Source of the DNA: Mesorhizobium australicum WSM2073
Lineage (GTDB): Bacteria; Pseudomonadota; Alphaproteobacteria; Rhizobiales; Rhizobiaceae
Length of the DNA: 64,000 bases
Assembly (NCBI RefSeq): GCF_000230995.2
Contig: NC_019973.1
Location: 3,548,001 to 3,612,000 of the forward strand
Reading direction: 5' to 3'
Under the pieces are notes generated by a model, which saw nothing but the letters and a program-made list of their open reading frames with translations, made no database searches and had not been told where the DNA came from. The position numbers and the translations under genes were made by a program. Shown here one piece after another: positions 3,377 through 47,183 of the stretch. The stretch's first letter is position 1. Each line of letters opens with the position of its first letter.

Positions 3377-5227
3377 TCAATCGTTCTGCGGGCGCAGGCC
3401 GAAGGTGGCGGGTTTGAGGCCGTAGCGTGTGTCGAAATCTTCGTCCGACTGCACGCGCGCCGCCGCCGGCGCTTTGCGGTAGTCGGGGTCGCCCGCCTGC
3501 CGGCCGGAATCGACCACCTCGGCGAAAGCCATCGCCTGGCTCTGCGGTTTCGGCACGTTACGCAGCCGCTCCACGATCGCCACCAGGTCGACCTCGCCGG
3601 CCTTGGACGTCACGTCTTCCTCGCGCTTGGCCGTGCCTGGAAGCAGGTGAGCGGGCAGTCTTTCGAATTTCAGCCGCATGGTCGTCGCCACGCCTTCGCC
3701 GAAGGCGATCGCTTCGCGCTGGCCCATGGAGGACAGGAACGCGAGCGTGGAGGCAGAAGAGTCGGCGATTGCCGAGCGGATGATCGCCTGGTCCTGCTCG
3801 TTGGCGAGCCGCATGGCGAAGAAGGTCGAGCACTGCGAGAGAATGGTCGGGTCGAGCTCGCCGGGGCGCTGGGTGACGACGCCGAGATAGCAACCATATT
3901 TGCGGCCTTCCTTGGCGATGCGCGACAGCGCGTGCCGGGTCGGCGCGAAGCCGAGACGCGCATCGGCGGGCATGTAGCGGTGCGCTTCCTCGCATAGGAA
4001 CAACAGCTGCAGCTTGCCTTCGCTCCACAGAGCAAGGTCGAAGGCCAGACGCGCCAGCACCGAGCAGACGGAATTGACCACTTCCGACGGCATGCCGGCC
4101 ATCTCGAAGCAGGTCACCGGACGGCCATGATGCGGCACGCGGAAGATGTTGCCGATCGTTTCGTGGATGGTGTCCTCGATCAGGCGCGAATTGAACATGA
4201 AGCGGTAGCGCGGATCGGCCGCCGCCGATTCGATGCGTGTCTTCAGCGATTTGAGGGTCGGACGATCGGTCTTGCTTTCGAGCATGCCCATGCGCTCGTC
4301 GATCTGCTTGAGCAGGTCGGCGATGCGGTAGGGCACCGGCGTATCGGCGGTCAGCGCATCGCTGCCGCGCCTCAGGTAGGCGCCTGAACCGGGGTTGCGA
4401 TAGAGGTTCTTGGCGAGCGGAATGAGGTCGCGAAGGGCATCGATCTCTTCCGGCACCGTCTCGCGTCCGCGAAACAGCACTTCGGCGAATTCCTCCATCG
4501 TGAACATCCAGAACGGCAGGTCGAGCGTCTTGGAATCGACCCTGACGCAATATTCTGGCAGCGAGGCCGCGAACTCGTTGTGCGGATCGAGGATCAGGAT
4601 GCGCAGGTCCGGTCGCGCCGCGATCGACTTGCGCAGCAGCAGCGACACCGCTGTCGACTTGCCGACGCCGGTCGTGCCGACAATGGCGAAGTGGCGCGCC
4701 AGCGTGTCATCGATGGCGATGTTGGCGGCGATCGCCTCGTCCTGCGCCAGCGAGCCGATGGTGATCGAATGGCGGCCGGCCAGGTCATAGACCGCCTGCA
4801 GGTCGCGGGTGCGGATGCGGTGCGCGACAGCGCCGATATGCGGATAGATGGTGATGCCGCGGTCGAAGATCGGCTTGGCCCCGGGTTCGGCGCCGTCACG
4901 GACTTCGCCGATCAGCTCGATGCTGACCTCGATGGCGTTCTTGCCGTCACTGTTCCAGGCCAGATCCGACTTGCCGATCGCGTAGACCAGGCCGACGGTT
5001 CGCGTCGTGCCAAGATTGATCGAGATCATCTTGCCGACCGTCCACAGGCCGGTGATCGCGCCGTCGGCGTCGTCGGCATAGGCGCTGATGGTGGCGCGCG
5101 CACCGTCGCATTGCACGACATTGCCCAGGATGCGCTTGTCGTGCTGGTCGGCTGTGCGGCGCTCCTGCGATGTCGGTTCTCCGACCGAAGCTTCGCGTTC
5201 GACATACATGGACAGGCCAATCCCCAT
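3377..5227 (-). CDS. HerA-like ATPase (DUF87 family)
   Basis: This is a FtsK-HerA superfamily ATPase of 616 residues, expected to form hexamers that translocate DNA. Walker A GTTGVGKST lies at 184-192, and a Walker B-type LLFLCEEAH lies at 408-416. The N-terminal 150 residues form the HerA/ATP-synthase barrel-like domain. Archaeal HerA works with the NurA nuclease in DNA end resection. No NurA-like, SIR2 or other nuclease gene is next to it here, so its partner is not visible. The gene stands alone, convergent with the GGDEF gene and divergent from the XRE-cupin regulator. Bacterial stand-alone homologues are common and mostly uncharacterised. Confidence 0.88.
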   Translation of the reverse strand: MGIGLSMYVEREASVGEPTSQERRTADQHDKRILGNVVQCDGARATISAYADDADGAITGLWTVGKMISINLGTTRTVGLVYAIGKSDLAWNSDGKNAIEVSIELIGEVRDGAEPGAKPIFDRGITIYPHIGAVAHRIRTRDLQAVYDLAGRHSITIGSLAQDEAIAANIAIDDTLARHFAIVGTTGVGKSTAVSLLLRKSIAARPDLRILILDPHNEFAASLPEYCVRVDSKTLDLPFWMFTMEEFAEVLFRGRETVPEEIDALRDLIPLAKNLYRNPGSGAYLRRGSDALTADTPVPYRIADLLKQIDERMGMLESKTDRPTLKSLKTRIESAAADPRYRFMFNSRLIEDTIHETIGNIFRVPHHGRPVTCFEMAGMPSEVVNSVCSVLARLAFDLALWSEGKLQLLFLCEEAHRYMPADARLGFAPTRHALSRIAKEGRKYGCYLGVVTQRPGELDPTILSQCSTFFAMRLANEQDQAIIRSAIADSSASTLAFLSSMGQREAIAFGEGVATTMRLKFERLPAHLLPGTAKREEDVTSKAGEVDLVAIVERLRNVPKPQSQAMAFAEVVDSGRQAGDPDYRKAPAAARVQSDEDFDTRYGLKPATFGLRPQND

Positions 5228-6282: not shown

Positions 6283-6813
6283 ATGAACGTCATAGAAATC
6301 GGGCCGTTGACCGCAAGCCGGGAAACACTCGCACAGCTGACCGATCTGCTGGTCGAAACGGTTGCCGCCGGCGGATCGGTCAGCTTCATGCATCCGCTGG
6401 CGTTGGATGTTGCCAGCGCGTTCTGGGAGACGTCGCTGGCCGCGGCGGCACGAGGGCAAAGAATGGTGCTTGGGGCATGGGACGGCGGCGCTCTGGTCGG
6501 CACCGTCACCCTGCTGCTCGACTGTCCGCCCAATCAGCCGCATCGGGCCGAGATCGCCAAGCTGATGACATCGGTCGGGCAGCGGGGCAGGGGTGTCGGG
6601 ACGCGCCTGATGCGAGCCGCCGAACGCCTCGCGGCGGAGAAGGGACGCACGCTGCTGGTTCTGGATACGGCGAGCGAAGAGGGTGCGTCGGGACTTTATG
6701 AGAAGCTTGGCTTCACCTTGGCCGGCGAAGTTCCGGACTATGCGCTGAAGCCGCATGGCGGGCTGACGGGCACGCTGATCTACTGGAAGCGCATCGGCAC
6801 AGCGTCGCGGTAA
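6283..6813 (+). CDS. GNAT-family N-acetyltransferase
   Basis: The 176-residue protein carries the acetyl-CoA pyrophosphate-binding motif QRGRGVGT (about residues 100-107), followed by an amphipathic helix and the C-terminal ASGLYEKLGF segment typical of GNAT enzymes that acetylate small amines. AGAGGA lies 7 nt upstream of the ATG. It is the third gene of a likely operon with the XRE-cupin regulator, whose ligand may be related to its substrate. It converges on the LysR gene with only a 10-bp gap. Confidence 0.9.
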   Translation: MNVIEIGPLTASRETLAQLTDLLVETVAAGGSVSFMHPLALDVASAFWETSLAAAARGQRMVLGAWDGGALVGTVTLLLDCPPNQPHRAEIAKLMTSVGQRGRGVGTRLMRAAERLAAEKGRTLLVLDTASEEGASGLYEKLGFTLAGEVPDYALKPHGGLTGTLIYWKRIGTASR

Positions 6814-6823
6814 CGCCAGTCAC

Positions 6824-7705
6824 TCATGCCTTCCCGGCGAGGCGCTTCAGCAGCCAATGGCGGAAATCCTGCTCGGCGCTGGTCAGGTGCGCGGTCGACG
6901 GCCCCGTCAGGAAATGCCCTGACGTGCTGGGCAGCTCAAAAACGGAAAGCCGGACCAGCGCTCCGCCGTCGAGCGCCGCGTCGATTAGGGGCCGCGACCC
7001 AAGGAGGACGCCGGCACCGGCGCTCGCCGCATGCATGGCGGCAACGAAACTGTCGAAGCGATGCGAGCGCCGGGGATGGCCGGCCAATCCGGCCGCCGCG
7101 AACCATTCGGCCCACATCTCGCGTGCGCCGGCCACCAGAAGCAGCGGCAGCGATGTCCAGTCGGCGGCACTGGCCAAGGCCGGGCTTGCCACCGGCACAA
7201 GCCGCTCGGCGGTCAGCCTCTCGGCCTCGCGTCCGGGAAAGGATCCGTTGCCGAAACGGATGTCGAGCGCCGAGCCTGGCAAATCGTAGTCGGTCGGGCG
7301 ATGGATCGTCACCAGATCAAGCTGGATGCGCGGCAGCGCCTCGGCGAGGTCGGGCAGCGCCGGAACCAGCGCCAGCAGCGCAAACGAGATCGGCACCCGG
7401 AGCGAGACGGTCTGGACGGCGCGCGGTTCGAACAGTTCCGTGGTGCTGCTGCCAATGGTGGCGAAGGCCGACTGGATGTGGGGCAGGTAGGCGGCACCTT
7501 CCGGCGACAGCGCGACCCCACGCGCCAGCCGCGAGAACAGACGCGTCTTCAGCCTTTCCTCGAGCAGCCGGATGTGCTGGCTGACGGCCGCCTGGGTCAG
7601 GCCGAGTTCGGCTGCCGCCGCGGTGAAGTTCGACAGCCGTGCCGCAGCCTCGAAACTGCGCAGCCAGTCGAGTGGAGGAAGGGTAGGAGCGGTTCGCCGT
7701 GCCAT
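6824..7705 (-). CDS. LysR-family transcriptional regulator (GcvA-like)
   Basis: The 293-residue regulator has an N-terminal winged helix-turn-helix (about residues 10-68, [18 protein letters not shown]) and a LysR substrate-binding domain. The LSNFTAAA and [14 protein letters not shown] segments resemble GcvA-type regulators. It is divergent from the gamma-butyrobetaine-hydroxylase-like gene, so it probably controls that gene and itself through the 117-bp shared region, which holds a 14-bp palindrome. The ATG at 7705 is preferred; another in-frame ATG eight codons upstream exists. The inducer might be a trimethylammonium phosphonate if the neighbouring genes are TmpA/TmpB. Confidence 0.9.
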
Positions 7706-7735
7706 TACCAAATCGCTGCCATTGGCCAAAAAATG

Positions 7736-7749
7736 ATAATTGGAATTAT
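7736..7749. promoter_or_regulatory. Palindrome in the LysR/oxygenase divergent promoter
   Basis: ATAATTGGAATTAT is a perfect inverted repeat (6-bp arms, 2-bp centre) about 30 bp from the LysR start codon and 87 bp from the oxygenase start. Its position and AT-rich symmetry suit a LysR-type binding site, but I cannot confirm that the regulator binds it. Confidence 0.45.
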
Positions 7750-7767
7750 ACCTTTCGGGAGGTCAAC

Positions 7768-7851
7768 ATGCAATCCAAACCACGGCACGACCGTGGGCAA
7801 CAAGGCGACAGGACGGATTTCCATGCTCACCCACGTGCTGGTTGGCGATGA
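7768..7851 (+). CDS. Possible 27-codon upstream ORF overlapping the oxygenase start
   Basis: An ATG at 7768 is preceded by a strong Shine-Dalgarno GGGAGG five bases upstream. It opens a 27-codon frame that runs over the oxygenase start (7823) in a different frame and stops at TGA 7849-7851. The peptide ([10 protein letters not shown]...) has no recognisable features. It is the best ribosome binding site in this region, whereas the oxygenase start has a weak one. It may be a leader that couples or tunes oxygenase translation, or it may be chance. Confidence 0.35.
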
Positions 7852-8974
7852 AGGCAGAACAATCGAACTTGGTTGGACAGAAGGCAAGCGTACCCGCTTC
7901 CACGCCGTCTGGCTGCGCGACAACGCGCTTGACGACAAGACGCGCAGCGCCGGCAATGGCCAACGCCTGATCACCATCCTCGACATTCCGGCGAAGACGA
8001 GAATTGGCGCTGCCGCCATCAAGGCCGGAGCGCTGGAGATCAGCTTCGAGCCGGAGGGAAAAACGGTCAGCTTTCCCGCCCAATGGCTGCGTGCGAACGC
8101 CTATGATCGCGACGAGACACGCCAGCCTGGTTGGACAGGCGATGTCATCCAGCGCTGGACCAGGGCGACGATGCAGAACGCGGTGCCGCGCGCCAGCTAT
8201 CCGGCGGCCTTGCATGGCCGCGGTGTCCTGCGCGAATGGCTTTCGGCGGTGAGGACTTATGGTTTTGCGGTGATGGACGGGCTGCCGGCCGAATCCGGGG
8301 CGCTGTGCAAGGTGTCCGACCTGTTCGGCTATATCAGGGAGACCAATTACGGGCGCTGGTTCGAAGTGCGCGCCGAGGTCAACCCGAACAATCTCGCCTA
8401 CACCAATCTCGGCCTGCAGGCGCATACCGACAATCCCTATCGCGATCCGGTGCCGACGCTGCAGATCCTGTCCTGCATCGAGAACACGGTGGAGGGCGGT
8501 GAATCCAGCGTCGTCGACGGCTTTGCCGTCGCGGCCGCTCTTCAAACGGAAAATCCCGAAGGTTTTCGGCTGTTGAGTTCCCATGCGGCGCGGTTCGAAT
8601 ATGCGGGGTCGTCCGGCGTGCGGCTGCAGGCGAAGCGCCCGATGATCGAGCTTGGACCCGACGGCGAACTGATCTGCATCCGCTTCAACAACCGTTCGCT
8701 GGCGCCGACCGTCGACGTGTCGTTCGCCGAGATGGGCGCTTATTATGCCGCCTACCGCCGCTTCGCCGAGCTGATCGAGGATCCATCCTTCGAAGTCACC
8801 TTCAAGCTCGAGCCCGGCCAGGCCTTCATCGTCGACAACACCCGCGTCATGCATGCCCGCAAGGCGTTTTCCGGCACCGGCAAGCGCTGGCTGCAGGGAT
8901 GCTACGCCGACAAGGACGGCCTGTTGTCGACGCTCGCGGCGATCGAACACGGCTTCAAGGAGGCCGCGGAATGA
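7823..8974 (+). CDS. Fe(II)/2-oxoglutarate dioxygenase, gamma-butyrobetaine hydroxylase-like (candidate TmpA)
   Basis: This 383-residue enzyme belongs to the gamma-butyrobetaine/trimethyllysine hydroxylase family and uses iron, oxygen and 2-oxoglutarate. An N-terminal GBBH-like domain (about residues 5-95) precedes the TauD/TfdA core. The iron ligands are H201 and D203 (QAHTDNP) and H344 (VMHARK); R355 should bind 2-oxoglutarate. The N-terminal domain has WLRDNALDD where zinc-binding family members have Cys residues, so that zinc site appears lost. The next gene, overlapping by 4 bp, is an HD-domain oxygenase of the PhnZ/TmpB type. The pair therefore suggests hydroxylation of 2-(trimethylammonio)ethylphosphonate rather than carnitine synthesis. 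That substrate is inferred, not shown. Confidence 0.85.
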
Positions 8975-9555
8975 TCGGCCAGGATCTGAACGCGGACACC
9001 ATCGTCGAATTCATCGCCGACATTTTTGAGCGCCGGGGCGCCGAATCCTATCTCGGCGAGCCGGTGACGATGTCCGAGCATATGCTGCAAGGGGCTTGGC
9101 TGGCGGAACAGGATGGAGCCCCAGACGTGCTGGTGGCCGCCGCGCTGCTGCACGACATCGGCCATTACACCAGCGAGTTCGGCACCTATTCGCCTGACGA
9201 TGTCGAGGACAAGCACCATGACGAGGCCGGCGGCGAAGTGCTGGCGCCGTTCTTCCCGCCTGTCATCGTCGAGTGCGTCCGGCTGCACGTTGCCGCCAAG
9301 CGCTATCTCTGCGCCGCCGACCCGACCTATTTCTCCAGGCTGTCGCCGGCTTCGGTTCATACCTTGTCGCTGCAGGGCGGACCGATGAGTGCCGACGAGG
9401 TGGCTGCGTTCCGCGAGAACCCGTTCCATGAGGAAGCGGTGCGGGTTCGCATCTGGGACGAGGGCGGCAAGGTCGCCAATATGCGGACGCGGGCGTTTCG
9501 CGACTATGTGCCGTTGCTGCAGCGCGTCGTGCACGACTTCGCCAATCGGCCCTGA
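8971..9555 (+). CDS. HD-domain mixed-valent di-iron oxygenase (PhnZ/TmpB-like)
   Basis: This 194-residue HD-domain protein has likely metal ligands H37, H61-D62 (LLHDIGHY), H83, H106 and D163. The spacing matches PhnZ (recalled as H34, H58-D59, H80, H104, D161). Y27 and E30 in SYLGE match the PhnZ substrate-lid pair Tyr-x-x-Glu. Such enzymes oxidatively cleave the C-P bond of 1-hydroxyphosphonates. With the preceding dioxygenase, the predicted reaction converts 1-hydroxy-2-(trimethylammonio)ethylphosphonate to glycine betaine and phosphate. Its ATG overlaps the dioxygenase stop as ATGA. An automated annotation would probably just say HD-domain phosphohydrolase. Confidence 0.85.
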
Positions 9556-9583
9556 CGAGACCAATGATCAGGAGGAGACAGCC

Positions 9584-9778
9584 ATGTGCTTCTGCTTCGA
9601 CGGCGAAAGCGCGGTGGCGGCATACCGGCCCTGCCGCGAGCGTTTGGCTGACGAGGGCGTTTTCACGCCATCGCCGACCAGCCCCAGCGGCGAACTCGCC
9701 GCTGCCGCCTTGTTCGACGTCGCCGACGCGGGACAGGTTCACCGTGTCGATGCGGGAGACGCGACCTATCCCTTGTGA
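9584..9778 (+). CDS. Small ORF with strong RBS, possibly a truncated gene
   Basis: A 64-residue frame starts 29 bp after the HD-domain gene, behind a near-perfect Shine-Dalgarno (AGGAGGAGA). It begins MCFCFDGESAVAAYR and has no domain I recognise. It ends inside the last 13 bp of the convergent flavin monooxygenase gene. It may be a real small protein of the oxygenase operon, or the 5' remnant of a longer gene lost by rearrangement at the junction with the monooxygenase. Confidence 0.45.
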   Translation: MCFCFDGESAVAAYRPCRERLADEGVFTPSPTSPSGELAAAALFDVADAGQVHRVDAGDATYPL

Positions 9779-11574
9779 TGGACCTGCTGCAGCCCGTAGA
9801 CTGGTGTCGGCAAGCCAACCTGCCGGGCTTTGAGCTGCAGCGCCAGATATTGCGAATAGTGGCGTGACTGATGGAGGTTGCCGCCATGGAACCACAGCGC
9901 CTCCTGCTGGGTCGGCTTCCACATGTTGCGCTGCTCGCCTTCCCAGGGGCCGGGATCCTTGGCGGTGTTGGAGCCAAGGCCCCAGACCTTGCCGACCTTG
10001 TCAGCCACCTCCTGCGAGATGAGGTCCGCCGCCCATCCGTTCATCGAGCCGTAGCCTGTGGCGTAGATCACGAGATCGGCCGGCAATTCGGTGCCATCGG
10101 CGAATTTGACGCCGGTTTGCGTCAATTCCCGCACCGCCGCACCTGGTCCGCTCTTGAGCTTGATCGAGCCGTCTATGACCAGGTCGCAGGCGCCGACATC
10201 GATGTAGTAACCCGAACCCCGGCGCAGATATTTCATGAACAGGCCTGAGCCGTCATCGCCCCAGTCGAGCAGGAAGCCGGCCTTTTCCAGGTCCGCGTAG
10301 AACTTCGCGTCGCGTTCCTTCATCTGCTGGTAAAGCGGGATCTGGAACTCGTGCAGGATGCGATAGGGCAGGGAGGCGAAGATCAGGTCGGCCTTGCGCG
10401 TCGTCATGCCGTTCTCCACCGCCTGCTCGGAATAGAGTGCGCTGAGCCCGATATCCATCAGTGTGTCGGACTTGACGATATGGGTGGAGGAGCGCTGCAC
10501 CATGGTAACGTCCGCGCCTCTCTCCCAGAGAGCCGCGCAGATGTCGTGGGCGGAGTTGTTGGAGCCGATGACCACGACCTTCTTGCCGCGATATTTGTCG
10601 GGGCCGGGATGGGTCGAGGAATGCTGCTGCTCGCCCTTGAAGATGTCCTGGCCCTTGTATTTCGGCCAGTTCGCCTTGCCGGACATGCCGGTGGCCAGCA
10701 CCAACTGCTTGGGCTTGAGCACGATCTCTTCGCCGTCTCGCTCGACCACGACGGTCCATTCCTTGGCCGTCTCGTCGTATTTCGCGGATTTAGCCGAGGT
10801 GGAGGACCAGTAGTTCAGCTCCATCACCTTCGTGTACATCTCCAGCCAGTCGCCGATCTTGTCCTTCGGGGCGAAGACCGGCCAGTTCTTGGGGAAGTCG
10901 ATATAGGGCAGATGGTCGTACCAGACCGGATCGTGCAGGCAGAGCGACTTGTAGCGCTTGCGCCAGGAATCGCCGGGACGCTCGTTCTTCTCAATGATGA
11001 TGGCCGATACGCCGAGCTGGCGCAGGCGCGCGCCGAGCGCAATGCCGCCCTGGCCACCGCCGATGATCACGACATAAGGCTGCTTGCCGCGGCCGAGTTC
11101 GGCGATCTCGTCATCACGCTCCTCGCGCCAGGATTTCCTGTCCTTGCCGTGACCGTGCTTGGCGCCGAGCGGCCGATTGAAACCGGCCTTCTCCTCATGG
11201 CCCTTGAGTTCGGCCATGGTGGTGAGCAAGGTCCAGATCAGGTCGCCCTTGAACCGCACCAGGCCGAAGCCGCGCGCCACCTCGGTCTCGAAGGTGATCC
11301 AGGCGGTGGTGACGCCGTCCGCCTCGGTCGCCTCCTCGCCTTCGGCCACCCTCCAGTCGCTCGGCCGGGTTCCAGCCAGCGTCGCTTTCAGCATGTCGCG
11401 GACCTGCTCCTGGCCCTCCATCGTCCTGAGATTCCAGGTGAAGGTGACGAGGTCGCGCCAGTAGCAATCCGCCTGGAAACAGTTGACCGCCGCGTCGATG
11501 TCGCCGGTCTCCAGCGCCTTGCCAAGCTTGTCGAGCAGGGCCTGCGCCTTCGTGGTGGGTGTTCTCTCGAGCAT
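9766..11574 (-). CDS. Flavin-containing monooxygenase with N-terminal NTF2-like domain
   Basis: The 602-residue protein joins an N-terminal SnoaL/NTF2-like domain (about residues 5-130) to a two-Rossmann flavoprotein monooxygenase. GGGQGG (172-177) binds FAD and GSNNSAHD (337-344) is the NADPH-binding loop. Between them FKGEQQHSS (from 312) fits the FMO fingerprint FxGxxxH. Such enzymes oxidise N, S or carbonyl groups of small molecules. The ATG at 11574 has GGAGGAG six bases upstream; the frame stays open 44 codons further but without support. It converges on the oxygenase cluster. A role in methylated-amine chemistry is possible but only from position. Confidence 0.9.
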   Translation of the reverse strand: MLERTPTTKAQALLDKLGKALETGDIDAAVNCFQADCYWRDLVTFTWNLRTMEGQEQVRDMLKATLAGTRPSDWRVAEGEEATEADGVTTAWITFETEVARGFGLVRFKGDLIWTLLTTMAELKGHEEKAGFNRPLGAKHGHGKDRKSWREERDDEIAELGRGKQPYVVIIGGGQGGIALGARLRQLGVSAIIIEKNERPGDSWRKRYKSLCLHDPVWYDHLPYIDFPKNWPVFAPKDKIGDWLEMYTKVMELNYWSSTSAKSAKYDETAKEWTVVVERDGEEIVLKPKQLVLATGMSGKANWPKYKGQDIFKGEQQHSSTHPGPDKYRGKKVVVIGSNNSAHDICAALWERGADVTMVQRSSTHIVKSDTLMDIGLSALYSEQAVENGMTTRKADLIFASLPYRILHEFQIPLYQQMKERDAKFYADLEKAGFLLDWGDDGSGLFMKYLRRGSGYYIDVGACDLVIDGSIKLKSGPGAAVRELTQTGVKFADGTELPADLVIYATGYGSMNGWAADLISQEVADKVGKVWGLGSNTAKDPGPWEGEQRNMWKPTQQEALWFHGGNLHQSRHYSQYLALQLKARQVGLPTPVYGLQQVHHKG

Positions 11575-11812
11575 GGTTTCTCCTCCGGTTGTCGGTTTCC
11601 AAGAACGCCTGTTCAGGCTTCCACTGGAACAGCAAGCGGCCGGCCAGGACCTCCCTGCCTGGGGATGGGGCTCCCATTCGCCGGCAACGCGTCTCCTCCC
11701 AGGCACGTCGTCAGCCCGGCATAGTGGTGCGTCGATGGGATGGGCTCAACTGTACTATGGTAGCGCGCGGCGGAGCCGATCTCACGGCTGAGTGAATTCG
11801 TGCGGTACCCCA

Positions 11813-12019: not shown

Positions 12020-13816
12020 ATGAGCAATGGACAGAACGAGCGGCGCGAGATGGCAGGTAGGGAAATGACCGGCGCCGAAATGGTGGTGCAGGCGCTGAAG
12101 GACAATGGCGTCAAGCATGTCTTCGGTTATCCCGGCGGCGCCGTTCTCCCGATCTATGACGAGATCTTCCAGCAGGACGAGGTCGAGCACATCCTCGTGC
12201 GGCACGAGCAGGGCGCCGGCCATGCGGCAGAGGGATATGCGCGGTCGACCGGCAAGGCCGGCGTCATGCTGGTGACATCGGGTCCCGGCGCCACCAATGC
12301 GGTGACGCCGCTGCAGGATGCGCTGATGGATTCGATCCCGCTGGTCTGCCTGACCGGTCAGGTGCCGACCTCGCTCATCGGCTCCGACGCGTTCCAGGAA
12401 TGCGACACGGTCGGCATTACGCGGCCCTGCACCAAGCACAACTGGCTGGTGAAGGACGTCAACGAACTCGCCGCGACCATCCACGAGGCGTTCCATGTCG
12501 CGACGACCGGCCGTCCCGGTCCGGTCGTGGTCGACATCCCGAAGGACGTGCAGTTCGCCAAGGGCTTTTATGTGCCGCCGCAGATCGCGCCGCGCACCAG
12601 CTACCAGCCCAAGGTCCAGGGCGACCTGGAGAAGATCAAGGCGGCGGTCGAACTGATGGCCGGCGCCAGGAAACCGGTGATCTATTCGGGCGGCGGTGTC
12701 ATCAATTCCGGCCCTGAAGCGAGCCATCTCTTGCGCGAACTGGTCGACCTCGCCGGTTTCCCGATCACCTCGACGCTGATGGGGCTCGGCGCCTACCCGG
12801 CGTCGGGCAAGAACTGGCTCGGCATGCTCGGCATGCACGGCACCTACGAAGCCAACATGGCCATGCATGACTGCGACGTCATGCTCTGCATCGGCGCGCG
12901 CTTCGACGACCGTATCACCGGCAGGCTGAATGCGTTCTCGCCGAACTCGCGCAAGATCCACATCGATATCGATCCGTCCTCGATCAACAAGAACGTCCAC
13001 ACCGAAGTGCCCATCATCGGTGATGTCGGGCGGGTGCTGGAAGACATGGTGCGGCTGTGGCGGGCAACCGCCAAGGCCGACAAGAAGGCGCTCTACCCCT
13101 GGTGGGAGCAGATCGCCAAATGGCGCGGGCGCGATTCACTCGCCTTCAAGATGAACAACGACGTGATCATGCCGCAATACGCCATCCAGCGGCTCTACGA
13201 GCTGACCAAGGACATGGATACCTACATCACCACCGAGGTCGGCCAGCACCAGATGTGGGCGGCGCAGCATTATCATTTCGAGAAGCCGAACCGCTGGATG
13301 ACCTCGGGCGGGCTGGGCACGATGGGCTACGGCCTGCCTGCCGCGCTCGGCGTGCAGATCGCGCATCCCGATGCGCTGGTCGTCGATATTGCCGGCGATG
13401 CTTCGGTGCAGATGACCATGCAGGAGATGAGCGCCGCCGTGCAGCACGACGCGCCGATCAAGATCTTCATCCTCAACAACCAGTATATGGGCATGGTGCG
13501 CCAGTGGCAGCAGCTGCTGCACGGCAATCGGTTGTCGCACTCCTACACCGAAGCGATGCCCGATTTCGTCAAGCTGGCCGAGGCCTATGGCGGCCATGGC
13601 ATTCGCTGCGACAAGCCAGACGAACTGGATGACGCGATCAAGGAGATGATCTCGGTCAGGAAACCGGTGCTGTTCGACTGCCGCGTGGCGACGCTCGCCA
13701 ACTGCTTCCCGATGATCCCGTCTGGCAAGGCGCATAACGAGATGCTGTTGCCGGACGAGGCCACCGACGAGGTAGTGGCCAATGCAATCGACGCCAAGGG
13801 CAGGGAACTGGTGTAG
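12020..13816 (+). CDS. ilvB: Acetolactate synthase large (catalytic) subunit
   Basis: The thiamine-diphosphate enzyme condenses two pyruvates, or pyruvate and 2-oxobutyrate, in the first common step of Val/Leu/Ile synthesis. The catalytic Glu is E63 in RHEQGAGHAAEGYA. The ThDP/Mg motif starts at GDASVQM (about residue 459) and ends at ILNNQYMGM; most family members have GDG where this has GDA. The 598 residues fit the family. It is followed 78 bp later by the regulatory subunit and is controlled by the attenuator at 11851-11956. The ATG at 12020 is used; MTGAEMVVQ at 12065, with GGTAGGGA before it, is an alternative start. Also named ilvI. Confidence 0.95.
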   Translation: MSNGQNERREMAGREMTGAEMVVQALKDNGVKHVFGYPGGAVLPIYDEIFQQDEVEHILVRHEQGAGHAAEGYARSTGKAGVMLVTSGPGATNAVTPLQDALMDSIPLVCLTGQVPTSLIGSDAFQECDTVGITRPCTKHNWLVKDVNELAATIHEAFHVATTGRPGPVVVDIPKDVQFAKGFYVPPQIAPRTSYQPKVQGDLEKIKAAVELMAGARKPVIYSGGGVINSGPEASHLLRELVDLAGFPITSTLMGLGAYPASGKNWLGMLGMHGTYEANMAMHDCDVMLCIGARFDDRITGRLNAFSPNSRKIHIDIDPSSINKNVHTEVPIIGDVGRVLEDMVRLWRATAKADKKALYPWWEQIAKWRGRDSLAFKMNNDVIMPQYAIQRLYELTKDMDTYITTEVGQHQMWAAQHYHFEKPNRWMTSGGLGTMGYGLPAALGVQIAHPDALVVDIAGDASVQMTMQEMSAAVQHDAPIKIFILNNQYMGMVRQWQQLLHGNRLSHSYTEAMPDFVKLAEAYGGHGIRCDKPDELDDAIKEMISVRKPVLFDCRVATLANCFPMIPSGKAHNEMLLPDEATDEVVANAIDAKGRELV

Positions 13817-13894
13817 ACGACGGACCGGGGCAGGGCTTGTCAAGATAAGCCGTGCGGAAACAGATAGTTAGATCAAGAATTTGAGATTCATGTC

Positions 13895-14470
13895 ATGAAC
13901 GCACAGCACCTTCAACCCACCGGTTCCGCCTACTTCATCGCCAAGGAAACGGAACGGCCGGAAAACCACACGCTTTCCGTGCTGGTCGATAACGAACCGG
14001 GCGTGCTCGCCCGGGTCATCGGCCTGTTTTCCGGGCGTGGCTACAACATCGAGAGCCTGACCGTCTCGGAAACCGAGCATGAAAAACACCTGTCGCGCAT
14101 CACCATCGTGACGCGCGGCACGCCGCATGTGCTGGAGCAGATCAAGCATCAGCTCGAGCGCATCGTGCCGGTGCATCGCGTGGTCGATCTCACCGTGCGT
14201 TCGCACGAGTTCGGACAGGAGCGGCCGCTGGAACGGGAACTGGCGCTGGTCAAGGTTGCCGGCACCGGCGAGGCCCGGGTCGAGGCGCTCAGGCTCGCCG
14301 ACGCGTTCCGCGCCAGCGTCATCGACGCCAACACCGAGCATTTTATCTTCGAGATCACCGGCAAGGGCTCCAAGCTCGACCAGTTCATCGCCATTATGAA
14401 GCCGCTCGGCCTGGTCGAGATCTGCCGCACCGGCGTGGCAGCCATGAACCGCGGCCCGCAGGGGATGTAG
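13895..14470 (+). CDS. ilvN: Acetolactate synthase small (regulatory) subunit
   Basis: The 191-residue subunit binds valine and gives feedback inhibition of the catalytic subunit encoded just upstream. An ACT domain (about residues 26-100, HTLSVLVDNEPGVLARV and the GYNIESLTV strand) is followed by the ALS small-subunit C-terminal domain with the EITG segment near the end. The gap to ilvB is 78 bp with no terminator, so both genes should share the attenuated transcript. Also named ilvH. Confidence 0.95.
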   Translation: MNAQHLQPTGSAYFIAKETERPENHTLSVLVDNEPGVLARVIGLFSGRGYNIESLTVSETEHEKHLSRITIVTRGTPHVLEQIKHQLERIVPVHRVVDLTVRSHEFGQERPLERELALVKVAGTGEARVEALRLADAFRASVIDANTEHFIFEITGKGSKLDQFIAIMKPLGLVEICRTGVAAMNRGPQGM

Positions 14471-14783: not shown

Positions 14784-14895
14784 CGCGCCGCTGGCCGTAC
14801 AGGCGGATCACTGCGGCGCGCATTGGACCACTCGAATGACGTTGCGTCCGGCGCCCGGTCGATTTAAGTCAGTATTGCTGACCTTTGGAGCCGTC

Positions 14896-15492
14896 ATGAC
14901 CCTCGACGCCTTCCTTGCCCTGCTGCTCTACGCCCTGGTGACCTCGGTCACGCCGGGCCCGAACAACTTTATGCTGCTGGCGTCGGGCGTGAATTTCGGC
15001 ATCGTGCGGACTATCCCGCATATGCTCGGCATCAGCATCGGATTTCTCGTCCTTTTGCTTGCCGTCGGCTTCGGGCTTGGGGCGGTGCTGACCGCGTTCC
15101 CCGCGCTGCACACCGGGCTTAAGATCGCCGGCGCCGTCTATCTGCTCTACCTGGCCTGGAAGATTGCCATGTCCCGCTCGCTCAGCGGCAAGGGCGAGAC
15201 GGATGCGCGGCCGATGCGATTCATCGATGCGGCGGCCTTCCAGTGGGTCAACCCCAAGGCTTGGGTGATGGCAATCACCGCGATGGCCGTCTATACCAAT
15301 CCCGAACGGCCATTCTTGTCCGTCATTCTGATCGGCGTGGCCTTCACCGTGGTCAATCTTCCCAGCGTCTCGGTCTGGGCCGGATTCGGCACGGCACTGC
15401 GCGGCTTCCTGTCCGACCCGGTGCGGTTGAAATGGTTCAACATCGCCATGGGCGTGCTGCTGGCGGCGACGCTTTGGCCGATGCTGCGCTAG
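14896..15492 (+). CDS. LysE/RhtB-family amino acid exporter
   Basis: This is a 198-residue inner-membrane exporter of the LysE/RhtB family, with about six helices. The N-terminal TSVTPGPNNFMLLASG segment is the family signature, and FQWVNPKAW is the second conserved segment. I chose the ATG at 14896, which has GGAG five bases upstream; an in-frame ATG at 14836 would add 20 residues not found in the family. The substrate, probably a neutral or basic amino acid, cannot be inferred. The nearby ilv genes may be coincidental. Confidence 0.88.
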   Translation: MTLDAFLALLLYALVTSVTPGPNNFMLLASGVNFGIVRTIPHMLGISIGFLVLLLAVGFGLGAVLTAFPALHTGLKIAGAVYLLYLAWKIAMSRSLSGKGETDARPMRFIDAAAFQWVNPKAWVMAITAMAVYTNPERPFLSVILIGVAFTVVNLPSVSVWAGFGTALRGFLSDPVRLKWFNIAMGVLLAATLWPMLR

Positions 15493-15721: not shown

Positions 15722-16990
15722 TTGTCGATGCGTGGAAAAGTCATGCTTTCATTGCTGGCGGTCGCCTGTGTCGGCGCGGCCTGGCTCTATCTGTCGCCGG
15801 ACGCGCTGAACAAGGCTCAGCAGTTCCTCGGCGCAAAGCAGGTCGCCGCGACAGACAAGCCAGCGACCGACAAGCCGGCGGCGGGGGACAAGGCGGCGGG
15901 TGGCGGCAACGGTGCCCGTTCGGCCTCGATCGTTTCGGCGACGGCGACGACCGCGGATTTCCCGATCCGCCGCTATGCCATTGGCTTCGTCTCCTCTCCG
16001 GCCGTGGTCAACATCAACGCGCGCGTCTCCAGCCAGATCGTGTCGATCGACGTCAAGGACGGGCAGATGGTGAAGGCGGGCGACCTCCTGTTCTCACTCG
16101 ACGATCGGGCGCTGAAGGCGCAACTCGCCAAGGACCAGGCAGCGCTTGCCAAGGACCAGGCGCTGCTTGCCAGCTCGAACTCCGACCTTCAGCGCGCCAA
16201 GGACCTTGTCGCCAAGCAGGCCGGTACGCAGCAGACCTACGACCAGGCCGTTGCCGCGCAGAAGGCGGCGGCGGCGACCGTCGATGCCGACAAGGCGACG
16301 ATCGACGCCGACAATGTCCAGCTTGGCTTTGCCACCATCACCGCGCCGATCGCCGGCAGGCTGGGTGCCGTGAATGTCGCCGTCGGCGACCTCGTCACCG
16401 TCAGCAACGGCAACAGCAGCACGGCGACGCCACTGGTAACCATCACCCAGATGGACCCGCTGCAGGTCAACTTCAATCTGCCGGAAAGCAACCTTGCGCT
16501 GCTTCACAAGGCGCTTGCCAATCCACAGCAGAACGCGGTGACGTTGATCCAGAACGGCGACCCGACGCCGATCGGCAAGGGTACGCTCGATTTCGTCGAT
16601 TCCAGCGTCGACACCGCATCGGGCACGATCGCGACGCGGGCAAGCATTCCGAATGCCGATCTTTCCCTTTGGCCGGGCCAGTATGTGAATGTCGTGCTCG
16701 ACGCCGGCATCATGCCGCGGATGACCTCGGTTCCGACCGTGGCGGTGCAGCCCAGCCAGAAGGGGCCGTTCGTGTACGTGGTCAAGCCGGACAGCACTGT
16801 CGAGATGCGGCCGGTGCAGGTGGCGCTGACCGAAGGCGCAAACAGCGCCATCAGCCAGGGGCTGAAAAGCGGCGAGAAGGTCGTCACCGAGGGCCAGACA
16901 AGGCTGAAGAACGGCGCCGCGGTGCATGAAGGCAAGGCGGCCGCGCCGAAGGTGGCCGAGGCGACCAACGCCGGCGAGGCGGCCCAATGA
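15722..16990 (+). CDS. RND efflux periplasmic adaptor (membrane fusion protein)
   Basis: The adaptor links an inner-membrane RND pump to an outer-membrane channel. After a short hydrophobic N-terminus (with LAVAC, a weak lipobox), it has the HlyD/AcrA lipoyl half-motifs around residues 100-130, a coiled-coil rich in Ala, Lys, Asp and Gln (about 125-195), and a beta-barrel domain. Length is 422 residues from TTG at 15722, which lies 8 bases after GGAGAGG; ATG at 15728 is the alternative. Its stop overlaps the start of the RND permease as ATGA. No outer-membrane channel gene is present nearby. Confidence 0.92.
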   Translation: MSMRGKVMLSLLAVACVGAAWLYLSPDALNKAQQFLGAKQVAATDKPATDKPAAGDKAAGGGNGARSASIVSATATTADFPIRRYAIGFVSSPAVVNINARVSSQIVSIDVKDGQMVKAGDLLFSLDDRALKAQLAKDQAALAKDQALLASSNSDLQRAKDLVAKQAGTQQTYDQAVAAQKAAAATVDADKATIDADNVQLGFATITAPIAGRLGAVNVAVGDLVTVSNGNSSTATPLVTITQMDPLQVNFNLPESNLALLHKALANPQQNAVTLIQNGDPTPIGKGTLDFVDSSVDTASGTIATRASIPNADLSLWPGQYVNVVLDAGIMPRMTSVPTVAVQPSQKGPFVYVVKPDSTVEMRPVQVALTEGANSAISQGLKSGEKVVTEGQTRLKNGAAVHEGKAAAPKVAEATNAGEAAQ

Positions 16991-19900
16991 TCTCCGAATT
17001 CTGTATCCGCAGGCCGGTCGCCACCCTTCTGATGTCGTTCGCCCTCGTGCTGGGCGGACTGTTCGCCTACAAATTCCTGCCGGTGGCGGCACTGCCGAGC
17101 GCCGAATTCCCGGTCGTCAACGTCTCGGCCTCGCTGCCCGGCGCTTCGCCGGAAACCATGGCCACATCGGTGGCGACGCCGCTGATCAAGCAGTTCGCGA
17201 CCATCGCCGGCATCGATTCCATTTCGACCACCAACTCGCTCGGCCAGACCTCGATCGCCATCCAGTTCGTGCTCAACCGCAACATCGACGCGGCCGCCGC
17301 CGACGTCCAGGCGGCGATCGCGCGCACGCAGAAATCGCTACCGCCGCAGATGACGGCGCCGCCAAGCTACCGCAAGGTCAATCCGGCCGATGCGCCGATC
17401 CTCTTGATGTCGCTGGTCAGCGACACGGTGCCGCTGACCGACCTCGATGCCTTCGCCGAAAACGTCATCTCGCCGTCGCTGTCGACCATCGACGGCGTCG
17501 CGCAGGTCTCGATCTTCGGCCAGCAGAAATACGCGGTGCGCATCCAGATCGATCCGACCGCGCTTGCCGCGCGCGGCATCTCGATCGATCAGCTGCAGGC
17601 GGCGGTCGCGTCCGCCAACAGCAACACGCCGCTCGGCGTGCTGCAGAACAACAAGCAGCAGCTCACCATCACCGCCAACACGCAGCTTACCGACGCGGCC
17701 GGTTTCTCAAACCTCATCATCGCCACCAAGAACGGCCACCCGGTGCGGCTGGGCGAGGTGACCCGTGTCGTCGATTCGGTGCAGACCACCACGACCGCAA
17801 GCTGGTATGACGGTACCCGCGCGATCATCATGGCGGTGCAGCGCCAGCCGGACGCCAACACGGTCGACGTCGTCGACAAGGTCAAGGCGATGCTGCCGTC
17901 CTTCCAGGACCAGATGCCGGCCGCAGCCCAGATCAAGCTGCTCAACGACCGCTCGAGCTCGATCCGCCAGGCGGTCGACGACGTGCAGTTCACGCTGCTT
18001 TTGACCATCGCGCTGGTGGTGATGGTGATCTTCGTGTTCCTGCGTCGCGTCACGGCGACCATCATCCCGGCCGTGGCGGTGCCGATCTCGCTGATCGCCA
18101 CGCTCGGCGCGATGTTCCTGTTCGGCTTTTCCATCGACAACATATCGCTGATGGGCCTGACGCTCGCCGTCGGCCTTGTCGTCGACGATGCCATCGTGAT
18201 GCTCGAAAACATCTTCCGCCATATGGAAGAGGATGGGCTGTCGGCCTTCGACGCGTCGCTGAAGGGCGCGCGCGAAATCGGTTTCACCATCATCTCGATC
18301 TCGATCTCGCTAGTGGCGGTGTTCATCCCGGTGCTTCTGATGGGTGGCGTGATCGGGCGCATCTTCAACGAGTTCGCCGTCGTGGTGACCGTCGCCATCC
18401 TGGCCTCCATGTTCGTGTCGCTGACGCTGACGCCGATGTTGTGCTCGCGGCTGCTGTCGGTGACCAAGGCCGACCGCGAGGCACATGGTGCTGGCCACAA
18501 GCGCGATTTCCTCACGCGCGGCTACGATCGGATTCTGAGCTTCTGCCTGCGGCACACCTTCCTGGTGTTCCTCGTCTTCGTCGGCACCGCGGCAGCCTCG
18601 GTGTGGCTGATCGAGGTTTCGCCGAAGGGTTTCTTCCCGCAAGAAGATATCGGCCAGATTTCGGTGACCACCATCGCGCGCCAGGACATTTCGTTCGACG
18701 CCATGGCCAAGCTGCAAGGGCAGGTGGCCAGCGTGTTCTCGAAGTCACCCTATGTCGACCATGTGGCGTGGTCGGCGGGCAGCGGTAACAATGCGCTGAA
18801 CCAGGGACAGCTCTTCGTCCAGCTCAAGGGCAAGGACCAGCGTCCCGATATCGAGAAGGTGCTTGCGGATCTGCGCAAGCAACTGGCCGGCGTGGCGGGT
18901 ATCGAGACCTACATGCAGCCGGTGCAGAATCTGCGGCTCGGCTCGCGCTCGTCGGCCAGTGCCTACCAGCTTGTGGTTCAGGGCCTCGATACCGGCCTGA
19001 CGGATCAGTGGGCGCAGAAACTGAATGACGCGATGGCGGCCGACCACATGACCTTCACCGACGTCACCAGCGACCTGCAGAACAACGCCTTGCAGGCGAC
19101 GCTGGTGGTGGACCGCGACAAGGCCGCCCAACTCGGTATCGACACCGACACGCTGCGCTCGGCTCTTTATGGCGGGTTCGGCACCAACCAGGTTTCAACG
19201 ATCTTCGGCTCGGCCGACAGTTACGAAGTCATCGCCGAACTCGATCCCAAGATCGAATGGTCGCCGGAGCGGATGCTTGCCATCCAGATGCGGACGGCGA
19301 GCGGCAGCCTAGTGCCGCTCGGCGCCTTCGCCAGGGTCGACCGCACGGCCGGAGCCTTGACGGTCAACCAGCTCGGCCAGCTTCCGGCGGTGACGATCTC
19401 CTACAACCTGCCGCAGGGCGTGGCGCTGGGCGACAGTGTGAAACGCATCGACGCGCTGAAAGAGCAGATCGGCATGCCGACGGCGATCTCCACGACCTTC
19501 GCCGGCACCGCCAAGACCTTCCAGGATTCGCTTGCCAACCAGGGCCTGCTGGTCGGCGGCGCCATCCTGACCATCTATATCGTGCTCGGCATTCTGTATG
19601 AGAGCTTCATCCACCCGCTCACCATTCTGACCGGCCTGCCGTCGGCTGTGCTCGGGGCGGTTGTCGCCTTGCGCTTCGCCGGCATGGATCTGTCCGTCAT
19701 CGCGGTGATCGGCATCCTGATGCTCATCGGCATCGTCAAGAAGAACGGCATCATGATGGTCGACGTCGCGCTTGAACTGCGACGAGAGGGCATGTCGGCC
19801 ACCGATTCCATCCACAAAGCCTGCCTGATGCGGTTCAGGCCGATCATGATGACGACGCTGGCGGCACTGATGGGCACGTTCCCGATCGCGCTCGGCACCG

Positions 19901-20148
19901 GCGCCAGCGCGGAACTGCGCCAGCCGCTGGGCGTTGCCGTCGTCGGCGGCCTGCTCGCCTCGCAGGCGCTGACCCTGTTCGTGACACCGGTGATCTACGT
20001 CTACATGGAGAATTTCTCGGGCTGGCTGGTCGGACTCATGCCGAAGCGCAAGGCCGAGTTGCACCTGGTCGAAGAGGGCGACCAGCCCTCGCTATTCGGC
20101 ACCAATGACGACATCCCCGGTGAGCCGCAGAAGACCGCCGCCGAGTAG
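16987..20148 (+). CDS. RND multidrug efflux permease (AcrB/MexF-type, HAE1 family)
   Basis: The 1053-residue inner-membrane proton antiporter should pump hydrophobic compounds with its adaptor. The N-terminal helix begins MISEFCIRRPVATLLM, typical of HAE1 pumps. The proton-relay helix carries the paired Asp in GLVVDDAIVMLENI. Two large periplasmic loops and a GIVKKNGIMMVD segment in the C-terminal half match the 12-helix RND fold. The end EGDQPSLFGTNDD is divergent. It is translationally coupled to the adaptor by ATGA overlap and is followed by a strong stem-loop. Confidence 0.95.
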   Translation: MISEFCIRRPVATLLMSFALVLGGLFAYKFLPVAALPSAEFPVVNVSASLPGASPETMATSVATPLIKQFATIAGIDSISTTNSLGQTSIAIQFVLNRNIDAAAADVQAAIARTQKSLPPQMTAPPSYRKVNPADAPILLMSLVSDTVPLTDLDAFAENVISPSLSTIDGVAQVSIFGQQKYAVRIQIDPTALAARGISIDQLQAAVASANSNTPLGVLQNNKQQLTITANTQLTDAAGFSNLIIATKNGHPVRLGEVTRVVDSVQTTTTASWYDGTRAIIMAVQRQPDANTVDVVDKVKAMLPSFQDQMPAAAQIKLLNDRSSSIRQAVDDVQFTLLLTIALVVMVIFVFLRRVTATIIPAVAVPISLIATLGAMFLFGFSIDNISLMGLTLAVGLVVDDAIVMLENIFRHMEEDGLSAFDASLKGAREIGFTIISISISLVAVFIPVLLMGGVIGRIFNEFAVVVTVAILASMFVSLTLTPMLCSRLLSVTKADREAHGAGHKRDFLTRGYDRILSFCLRHTFLVFLVFVGTAAASVWLIEVSPKGFFPQEDIGQISVTTIARQDISFDAMAKLQGQVASVFSKSPYVDHVAWSAGSGNNALNQGQLFVQLKGKDQRPDIEKVLADLRKQLAGVAGIETYMQPVQNLRLGSRSSASAYQLVVQGLDTGLTDQWAQKLNDAMAADHMTFTDVTSDLQNNALQATLVVDRDKAAQLGIDTDTLRSALYGGFGTNQVSTIFGSADSYEVIAELDPKIEWSPERMLAIQMRTASGSLVPLGAFARVDRTAGALTVNQLGQLPAVTISYNLPQGVALGDSVKRIDALKEQIGMPTAISTTFAGTAKTFQDSLANQGLLVGGAILTIYIVLGILYESFIHPLTILTGLPSAVLGAVVALRFAGMDLSVIAVIGILMLIGIVKKNGIMMVDVALELRREGMSATDSIHKACLMRFRPIMMTTLAALMGTFPIALGTGASAELRQPLGVAVVGGLLASQALTLFVTPVIYVYMENFSGWLVGLMPKRKAELHLVEEGDQPSLFGTNDDIPGEPQKTAAE

Positions 20149-45869: not shown

Positions 45870-47183
45870 CTAGCTCCTCGCAATCGCATGAAAGAAGGTG
45901 CCGCTGACGTGGCCACGCCGGTAGCCTGAGGCGCCGAGCGGATTGCCCTGGCCGTCGGCAAGGTCAGCCAGCGGCTCGTCATTGCCGGTGGCCGTCATCT
46001 GCGCATAGTGGAATTCGTGACCCCGGATCAGCGCGCCCTGCGAACCCAGCGGGCAATCGGCACGCAGCCGAGCCTCGCGGTAGCCAAGATTCATCTTGCG
46101 CCTGGCGAAGCTGGTGGAATGGCCGAGCAGGCCGAGCATGCGATGCGTTTCGCCTGATGCATCCTCCATCGCTTCACCAAGCACCATGAAGCCGCCGCAT
46201 TCGCCATGGATCGGCTTTGTCGTGGCGAAACGTGCCATCCCCGCATGGAAATTCGCGGCGGCCGTGAGTTTGCCGGCATGAAGCTCGGGATAGCCGCCGG
46301 GCAGCCAGCAAACATCGCAATCCTCGTCCGGCGCTTCGTCGGCGAGCGGCGAGAACGGGACGATTTCCGCGCCGGCCTTGCGCCAATAGGCGGCGACATG
46401 CGGGTAGAGGAAGGTGAAGGCGGCATCCTCGGCAAGCGCGATGCGTTGACCGGGCGGCCGCAGCGCGTCGGCGAAGGAACCTGCTGCCGGGGCGAAGGGC
46501 GTTGCCAGGGCCATGACCGCGTCGAGGTCGAGCGACTTCTCCGCCGTGTCGGCGAGCCGGTCGAGATGCGCCATCAGGTCGTCATATTCGCCGGCCTGGA
46601 CGAGGCCGAGATGGCGCTCGGGCAAATTGAGCGAGGGGTCGCGCAAAATAGCGCCGACGACGGGCAGGCCGATCGCCTCGATGGCGTCGCCGGACAGCTT
46701 CCGATGGCGCTCGCTGCCCAGCCGGTTGAGCACGACGCCGGCCATGCGCACATCCGGGTCGTACGTGGCAAAACCCTTGGCGACGGCCGCCGCCGTTGTC
46801 GACTGGCCTGACACGTCGAGCACCAGCAGCACCGGCAGACCGTAGAGCCGGGCCAGATCGGCAGCCGAACCGGTGCGGCCAGGCGAGGCCGGGATGCCGT
46901 CGAACAGGCCCATGGCGCTTTCGAGGATGACGAAATCGGTGTCGTCGGCCGCTTGTGCGGCCAGCGCATTGAGCAGCGGCGGCGACATCGCCCAGCTGTC
47001 GAGATTGACGCCGGACAGGCCGGTGGCGGCGGTATGGAAGCCGGGGTCGATATAGTCGGGGCCGGACTTGGCGCCGCGCACTTTCAGGCCACGCCGGGTG
47101 AGTGCGCGCAGGATGCCGATGGTGACGCTGGTCTTGCCCGAACCAGAGCGCGGCGCGCCGATGATGATCGCCCGGGCCGTCAT
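45870..47183 (-). CDS. cobB: Cobyrinic/hydrogenobyrinic acid a,c-diamide synthase
   Basis: The 437-residue enzyme amidates carboxyl groups a and c with glutamine and ATP. The N-terminal dethiobiotin-synthetase-like domain has the P-loop GAPRSGSGKTS; the C-terminal glutamine amidotransferase domain has the nucleophile Cys in HGECGG (about C329) and the closing GHEFHY. Its start overlaps the cobA stop by 4 bp. Confidence 0.95.
   Translation of the reverse strand: MTARAIIIGAPRSGSGKTSVTIGILRALTRRGLKVRGAKSGPDYIDPGFHTAATGLSGVNLDSWAMSPPLLNALAAQAADDTDFVILESAMGLFDGIPASPGRTGSAADLARLYGLPVLLVLDVSGQSTTAAAVAKGFATYDPDVRMAGVVLNRLGSERHRKLSGDAIEAIGLPVVGAILRDPSLNLPERHLGLVQAGEYDDLMAHLDRLADTAEKSLDLDAVMALATPFAPAAGSFADALRPPGQRIALAEDAAFTFLYPHVAAYWRKAGAEIVPFSPLADEAPDEDCDVCWLPGGYPELHAGKLTAAANFHAGMARFATTKPIHGECGGFMVLGEAMEDASGETHRMLGLLGHSTSFARRKMNLGYREARLRADCPLGSQGALIRGHEFHYAQMTATGNDEPLADLADGQGNPLGASGYRRGHVSGTFFHAIARS

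Follow-up and report, generated by a model that had tools for sequence, protein, structure and literature searches.

The window, a stretch of 64,000 nucleotides from Mesorhizobium australicum WSM2073, covers positions 3548001-3612000 of a 6.2 Mb genome that is assembled as a single contig. It contains overlapping genes for a dioxygenase and an HD-domain protein, which we predict to be TmpA and TmpB, together with a divergently transcribed gene for a LysR-type regulator and a small open reading frame (ORF) behind tmpB (Table 1). The original prediction, which proposed a LysR gene next to a TmpA/TmpB-like pair, ran from 7705 (the LysR start codon) to 9778 (the end of the small ORF, of which it made no mention). 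It holds up: the ORFs are where it placed them, with LysR divergent; the dioxygenase and HD genes do overlap by 4 bp (ATGA, 8971-8974); and both proteins pass the curated models for their families.

Table 1. Features of the tmp locus in the window and, in the last three rows, of related loci (in the coordinates of each locus)
Feature	Position	Strand	Basis or remark
LysR-type regulator, 293 aa	6824-7705	-	Pfam HTH_1 and LysR_substrate; divergent from tmpA
Palindrome ATAATT-GG-AATTAT, putative LysR operator	7736-7749	.	Perfect 6+2+6 inverted repeat
tmpA, predicted Fe(II)/2-oxoglutarate hydroxylase, 383 aa	7823-8974	+	NF049936; PDB 6npb; tree
tmpB, predicted mixed-valent di-iron HD oxygenase, 194 aa	8971-9555	+	NF049941; PDB 6npa; ligands
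AGGAGGAG, Shine-Dalgarno-like site of the small ORF	9570-9577	+	Sequence
Small ORF (MCFCFDG...), 64 aa	9584-9778	+	Starts 28 nt past the tmpB stop codon
Isocitrate/isopropylmalate-dehydrogenase-type gene, locus L105	1916-3193		PF00180
Isocitrate/isopropylmalate-dehydrogenase-type gene, locus L109	3530-4738		PF00180
Isocitrate/isopropylmalate-dehydrogenase-type gene, locus L110	3450-4727		PF00180

A scan of 6700-9900 for sigma-70 promoters found none. The same region has three terminator-like sites, as compared to 2.4 expected, and none of them is behind tmpB. On the far side of the small ORF lies a convergent flavin-monooxygenase-like gene (9769-11577, minus strand), whose 3' end overlaps the 3' end of the small ORF by 13 bases; monooxygenase models (ArsO and trimethylamine monooxygenase) match its product far below their cut-offs. 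Upstream of the tmp locus is a gene for a HerA-like ATPase (3380-5227, minus strand), which is kept there in most Mesorhizobium loci. Models of anti-phage HerA proteins match this ATPase far below their cut-offs.

We compared both enzymes to NCBIfam 20.0, which includes equivalog models for TmpA and for TmpB. The HD protein passes the TmpB model (NF049941) with 327.0 bits (cut-off 300). Its best match in the PDB is TmpB from Leisingera caerulea (6npa, E = 7.8e-74); like the best match of the dioxygenase (E = 4.6e-147, see below), this is far beyond chance. The six metal ligands of TmpB (His37, His61, Asp62, His83, His106, and Asp163) and the YxxE pair (Tyr27 and Glu30) are all at the positions that the original prediction gave for them, and all are invariant across 81/81 sequences. 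In the parts of PMC8177086 available to us, the YxxE loop and the six-ligand motif are described for both TmpB and PhnZ, along with their roles.

Among the solved relatives of the HD protein, PhnZ ranks second (E about 1e-27), so we considered whether the two genes might encode a PhnY*/PhnZ-type pair that acts on 2-aminoethylphosphonate or methylphosphonate. This seems very unlikely: PhnZ scores about 150 bits less than TmpB does, and the HD protein falls below the cut-offs of both the PhnZ1 model (158.7 vs. 300 bits) and the Phn-HD model (204.2 vs. 214.6 bits).

The dioxygenase passes the TmpA model (NF049936) with 552.9 bits (cut-off 400), and its best match in the PDB is L. caerulea TmpA (6npb). 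The second-best solved relative is gamma-butyrobetaine hydroxylase (BBOX). An older model for gamma-butyrobetaine dioxygenase, TIGR02409, is also above its cut-off (524.4 vs. 414.75 bits); the TmpA model scores higher. tmpA is the only gene in the genome above the TIGR02409 cut-off, and the next match has 27.8 bits. In a class-wide sample of 58 genomes, just three, including the window's own, exceed this cut-off. Since tmpB adjoins the gene in all three of these genomes, TIGR02409 probably takes in TmpA.

The iron-binding residues of the dioxygenase (the 2-His-1-Asp site of His201, Asp203, and His344), which had also been predicted, are invariant in 81/81 sequences. For the substrate, passages of PMC9296572 give the phosphonate-binding residues of TmpA as Asn187, Asn287, and Arg288, and human BBOX has two Asn there. 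In our alignment to 6npb, these three residues correspond to Asn190, Asn290, and Arg291 of the dioxygenase (we inferred the numbering offset of the PDB chain, which agrees with each of the three). None of them varies among the 81 sequences from tmpB-linked loci. Among 14 homologs from the class sample, Asn190 and Arg291 occur together in 7/7 that have an adjacent tmpB and in 0/7 that do not; of the seven lacking tmpB, three carry the Arg without Asn190. Asn290 is more variable, with Ser (L125) or Ala (L127) in two of the seven tmpB-adjacent homologs.

We also built a phylogenetic tree of 35 sequences: 26 homologs with an adjacent tmpB, 7 without, the characterized TmpA, and human BBOX. The loci are a hand-picked subset, and of the carnitine-pathway enzymes with proven activity, the tree covers one, human BBOX. 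A branch with 100/100 support unites the window's dioxygenase with the characterized TmpA and 23 other sequences, apart from human BBOX, as had been predicted. Also outside this branch are the seven sequences without tmpB and two divergent sequences with an adjacent tmpB (L128 and L129). The support for grouping all of the tmpB-adjacent sequences is only 69/84, probably because the placement of L129 is unsure. The tree program flagged long branches in the outgroup.

The least probable reading is that the dioxygenase is a gamma-butyrobetaine hydroxylase of the carnitine pathway and that a phosphohydrolase of the HD family adjoins it by chance: the TIGR02409 score and the carnitine name on many public records agree with it, but the tree places the dioxygenase with TmpA, the phosphonate-binding Asn and Arg are present, tmpA adjoins tmpB in 80/80 loci that we fetched with TmpB, and the HD protein passes the TmpB model and has the YxxE loop, as the original prediction expected of its lid Tyr and Glu. 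The claim that the function would be missed, with default annotation giving a TauD dioxygenase and an HD phosphohydrolase, no longer holds, as the TmpA and TmpB models of NCBIfam 20.0 both fire. Some public records already say 2-trimethylaminoethylphosphonate dioxygenase, while many still say gamma-butyrobetaine dioxygenase.

The tmpAB genes, with the LysR gene divergent from them, represent a system that is already known and for which curated models exist. Family membership for both enzymes, all of the metal ligands, the residues of the substrate pocket, and the gene order are directly visible in the sequence, and from these we infer the activity and the substrate. Very probably, tmpAB form an operon whose products convert 2-(trimethylammonio)ethylphosphonate (TMAEP) to phosphate and glycine betaine. 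TmpA, using Fe(II) and 2-oxoglutarate, would hydroxylate TMAEP at C1, and TmpB, with its mixed-valent di-iron center, would then cleave the C-P bond to release the two products.

We did not recognize a phosphonate importer among seven ORFs near the locus that we scanned with NCBIfam. One of these ORFs (14836-15489) has a weak likeness to amino-acid exporters, below the cut-off. Also nearby, beyond these seven, are an efflux-like pair (15722-20148) and the genes at 12020-14470, which by inspection we take to be ilvB and ilvH. Among ten neighboring proteins from six related loci (L104, L105, and L107-L110), a Pfam scan found one MFS protein (L110) and no other transporter.

Of 61 genomes from the genus, 42 contain a relative of TmpB (40 if only the 59 good genomes are counted), and two of these 42 proteins are only 62-65% identical. 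At the level of the order, 15 genomes out of 150 have a protein above the TmpB cut-off. The TMAEP route is known from marine phosphonate degraders, according to the abstract of PMC11203657. Our results suggest that this substrate-specific route is a common trait of Mesorhizobium. The genome considered here also has the C-P lyase protein PhnJ as well as PhnW.

A related LysR gene is divergent beside tmpA in 72/80 loci, one of which (L088) is cut by the end of the contig. The copies in Labrys, Lichenifustis, and Rhizobium setariae are 50-57% identical to the window's. Of the remaining loci, two (L095 and L100) are truncated and L066 retains just a fragment of the gene; LysR is absent from five distant loci whose upstream sequence is long enough (L105, L106, and L108-L110). 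In the three of these loci whose divergent gene we scanned, LysR is replaced by an isocitrate/isopropylmalate-dehydrogenase-type gene in every case (Table 1). In NCBIfam, the window's LysR protein scores best with the models for GcvA and for the choline-sulfate regulator but does not reach the cut-off of either.

We were able to extract 73 lysR-tmpA intergenic regions, and most of them share one block, which is centered on the palindrome ATAATT-NN-AATTAT. The palindrome is perfect in 37/73 regions and has at most one mismatch in 66/73; the other seven are from L071, L096, L098, L101, L102, L104, and L107. Where it is perfect, its distance to the start codon of LysR is 30 bases in 31 of the 37 regions. 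We rejected the idea that the operator is shared with a distant gene, as the extended block occurs just once in the genome (allowing up to three mismatches). This conserved palindrome is likely to be the LysR operator. The LysR protein would bind to it: the protein probably senses a compound of the pathway, which would be the inducer, and switches tmpAB on.

The Pho box has the pattern CTGTCAT-N4-CTGTCAT. We rejected a Pho box near tmpA: with up to three mismatches, the only match in the window is at 46502, far from tmpA, as compared to 3.16 matches expected by chance. This is a weak test because the pattern is strict. Together, the dedicated LysR gene and the lack of a Pho-box-like match nearby hint that tmpAB is controlled by its substrate, and the purpose may be glycine betaine no less than phosphate. 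In the portions of the literature available to us, divergent LysR genes recur beside other C-P hydrolase operons, with substrate-type inducers (PMC10574752), and expression of the C-P hydrolase type can be insensitive to phosphate (PMC9381506). Literature passages on TmpB, phosphonate, and LysR do not describe a regulator of tmpAB.

To see how widespread the small ORF is, we considered 81 loci (the window's and 80 others) and looked within 160 nt behind tmpB for an ORF whose start resembles MCFCFDG (at least 5/7 residues). Such an ORF is present in 35/81 loci, and it begins 21 to 32 nt past the tmpB stop codon. In 32 of the 35 loci, a GGAG, GAGG, or AGGA core lies 4-15 nt upstream, and the ribosome-binding site of the window's copy is strong. 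Codons 2-7 have a pN/pS ratio of 0.043 (from pooled pairs across the 35 loci, uncorrected for kinship). The ratio rises to 0.51 for codons 8-22 and to 0.96 for the unaligned tail (pooled pairs from 30 loci, also uncorrected for kinship). These latter values are from loci without a change of length before Cys19, so the window's copy, which lacks two residues there, is excluded. The ORF of L035 ends after 10 residues, and the copy in L037 seems to be frame-shifted. The tail of the ORF thus looks unconstrained. At the N-terminus, where almost all of the changes are synonymous, we can reject chance as the explanation.

The ORF's product has no match in NCBIfam or Pfam at E = 0.001. A profile search found 41 proteins, and all ten whose displayed names include an organism are hypothetical proteins from Mesorhizobium. 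Among the 61 genomes of the genus, the start pattern occurs in 21 with up to one mismatch (15 exactly), each time just behind tmpB and on the same strand; a reversed control pattern occurs in none of the 61. Because all 21 matches lie behind tmpB (within about 60 bases, as compared by eye), we reject the idea that the ORF is a general element of Mesorhizobium genomes. With no mismatch allowed, the only one of 394 genomes from the family that contains the pattern is the window's own, and none of the 386 genomes of other genera do. Four loci with the ORF do not carry the name Mesorhizobium (L042, L061, L088, and L090), and their TmpB proteins are 89-92% identical to the window's.

Given the conservation of this ORF, the placement of its start pattern, and its distribution, it likely encodes a short translated peptide. 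In a quick tree of tmpAB from 70 loci, the presence of the ORF requires 12 changes of state, 10 of which are forced by well-supported branches. We read this patchy distribution as repeated loss within the genus. We tentatively propose, as a possibility rather than an expectation, a third tmp cistron: a cysteine-bearing peptide (MCFCFDG ... RPxxCRER) of which only the first 22 or so residues matter, which has a function tied to TmpAB (such as binding metal or modulating TmpB), and which has been lost repeatedly in the genus. The tmpAB system itself was already known, and the conserved peptide ORF is the new piece.

Compared to L. caerulea TmpA and TmpB (6npb and 6npa), the enzymes described here are the same, including their active-site residues, and so is the order of the two genes, as far as the available descriptions of that system go. 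The differences are that these genes are in a Mesorhizobium genome and that many strains have a small extra ORF behind tmpB. The Mesorhizobium locus also has a divergent LysR gene with a conserved palindrome; our comparison to L. caerulea covers the enzymes and the gene order. PhnY*/PhnZ shares the two-step chemistry and the di-iron HD motif, according to passages of PMC8177086, but its substrate is 2-aminoethylphosphonate, and the Mesorhizobium HD protein is below the cut-offs of the PhnZ-type models. BBOX resembles the dioxygenase in its iron site and in the trimethylammonium type of its substrate. However, human BBOX lacks the Arg at the phosphonate-binding place (NNA, instead of NNR in the Mesorhizobium protein), and it lies outside of the TmpA branch of the tree.
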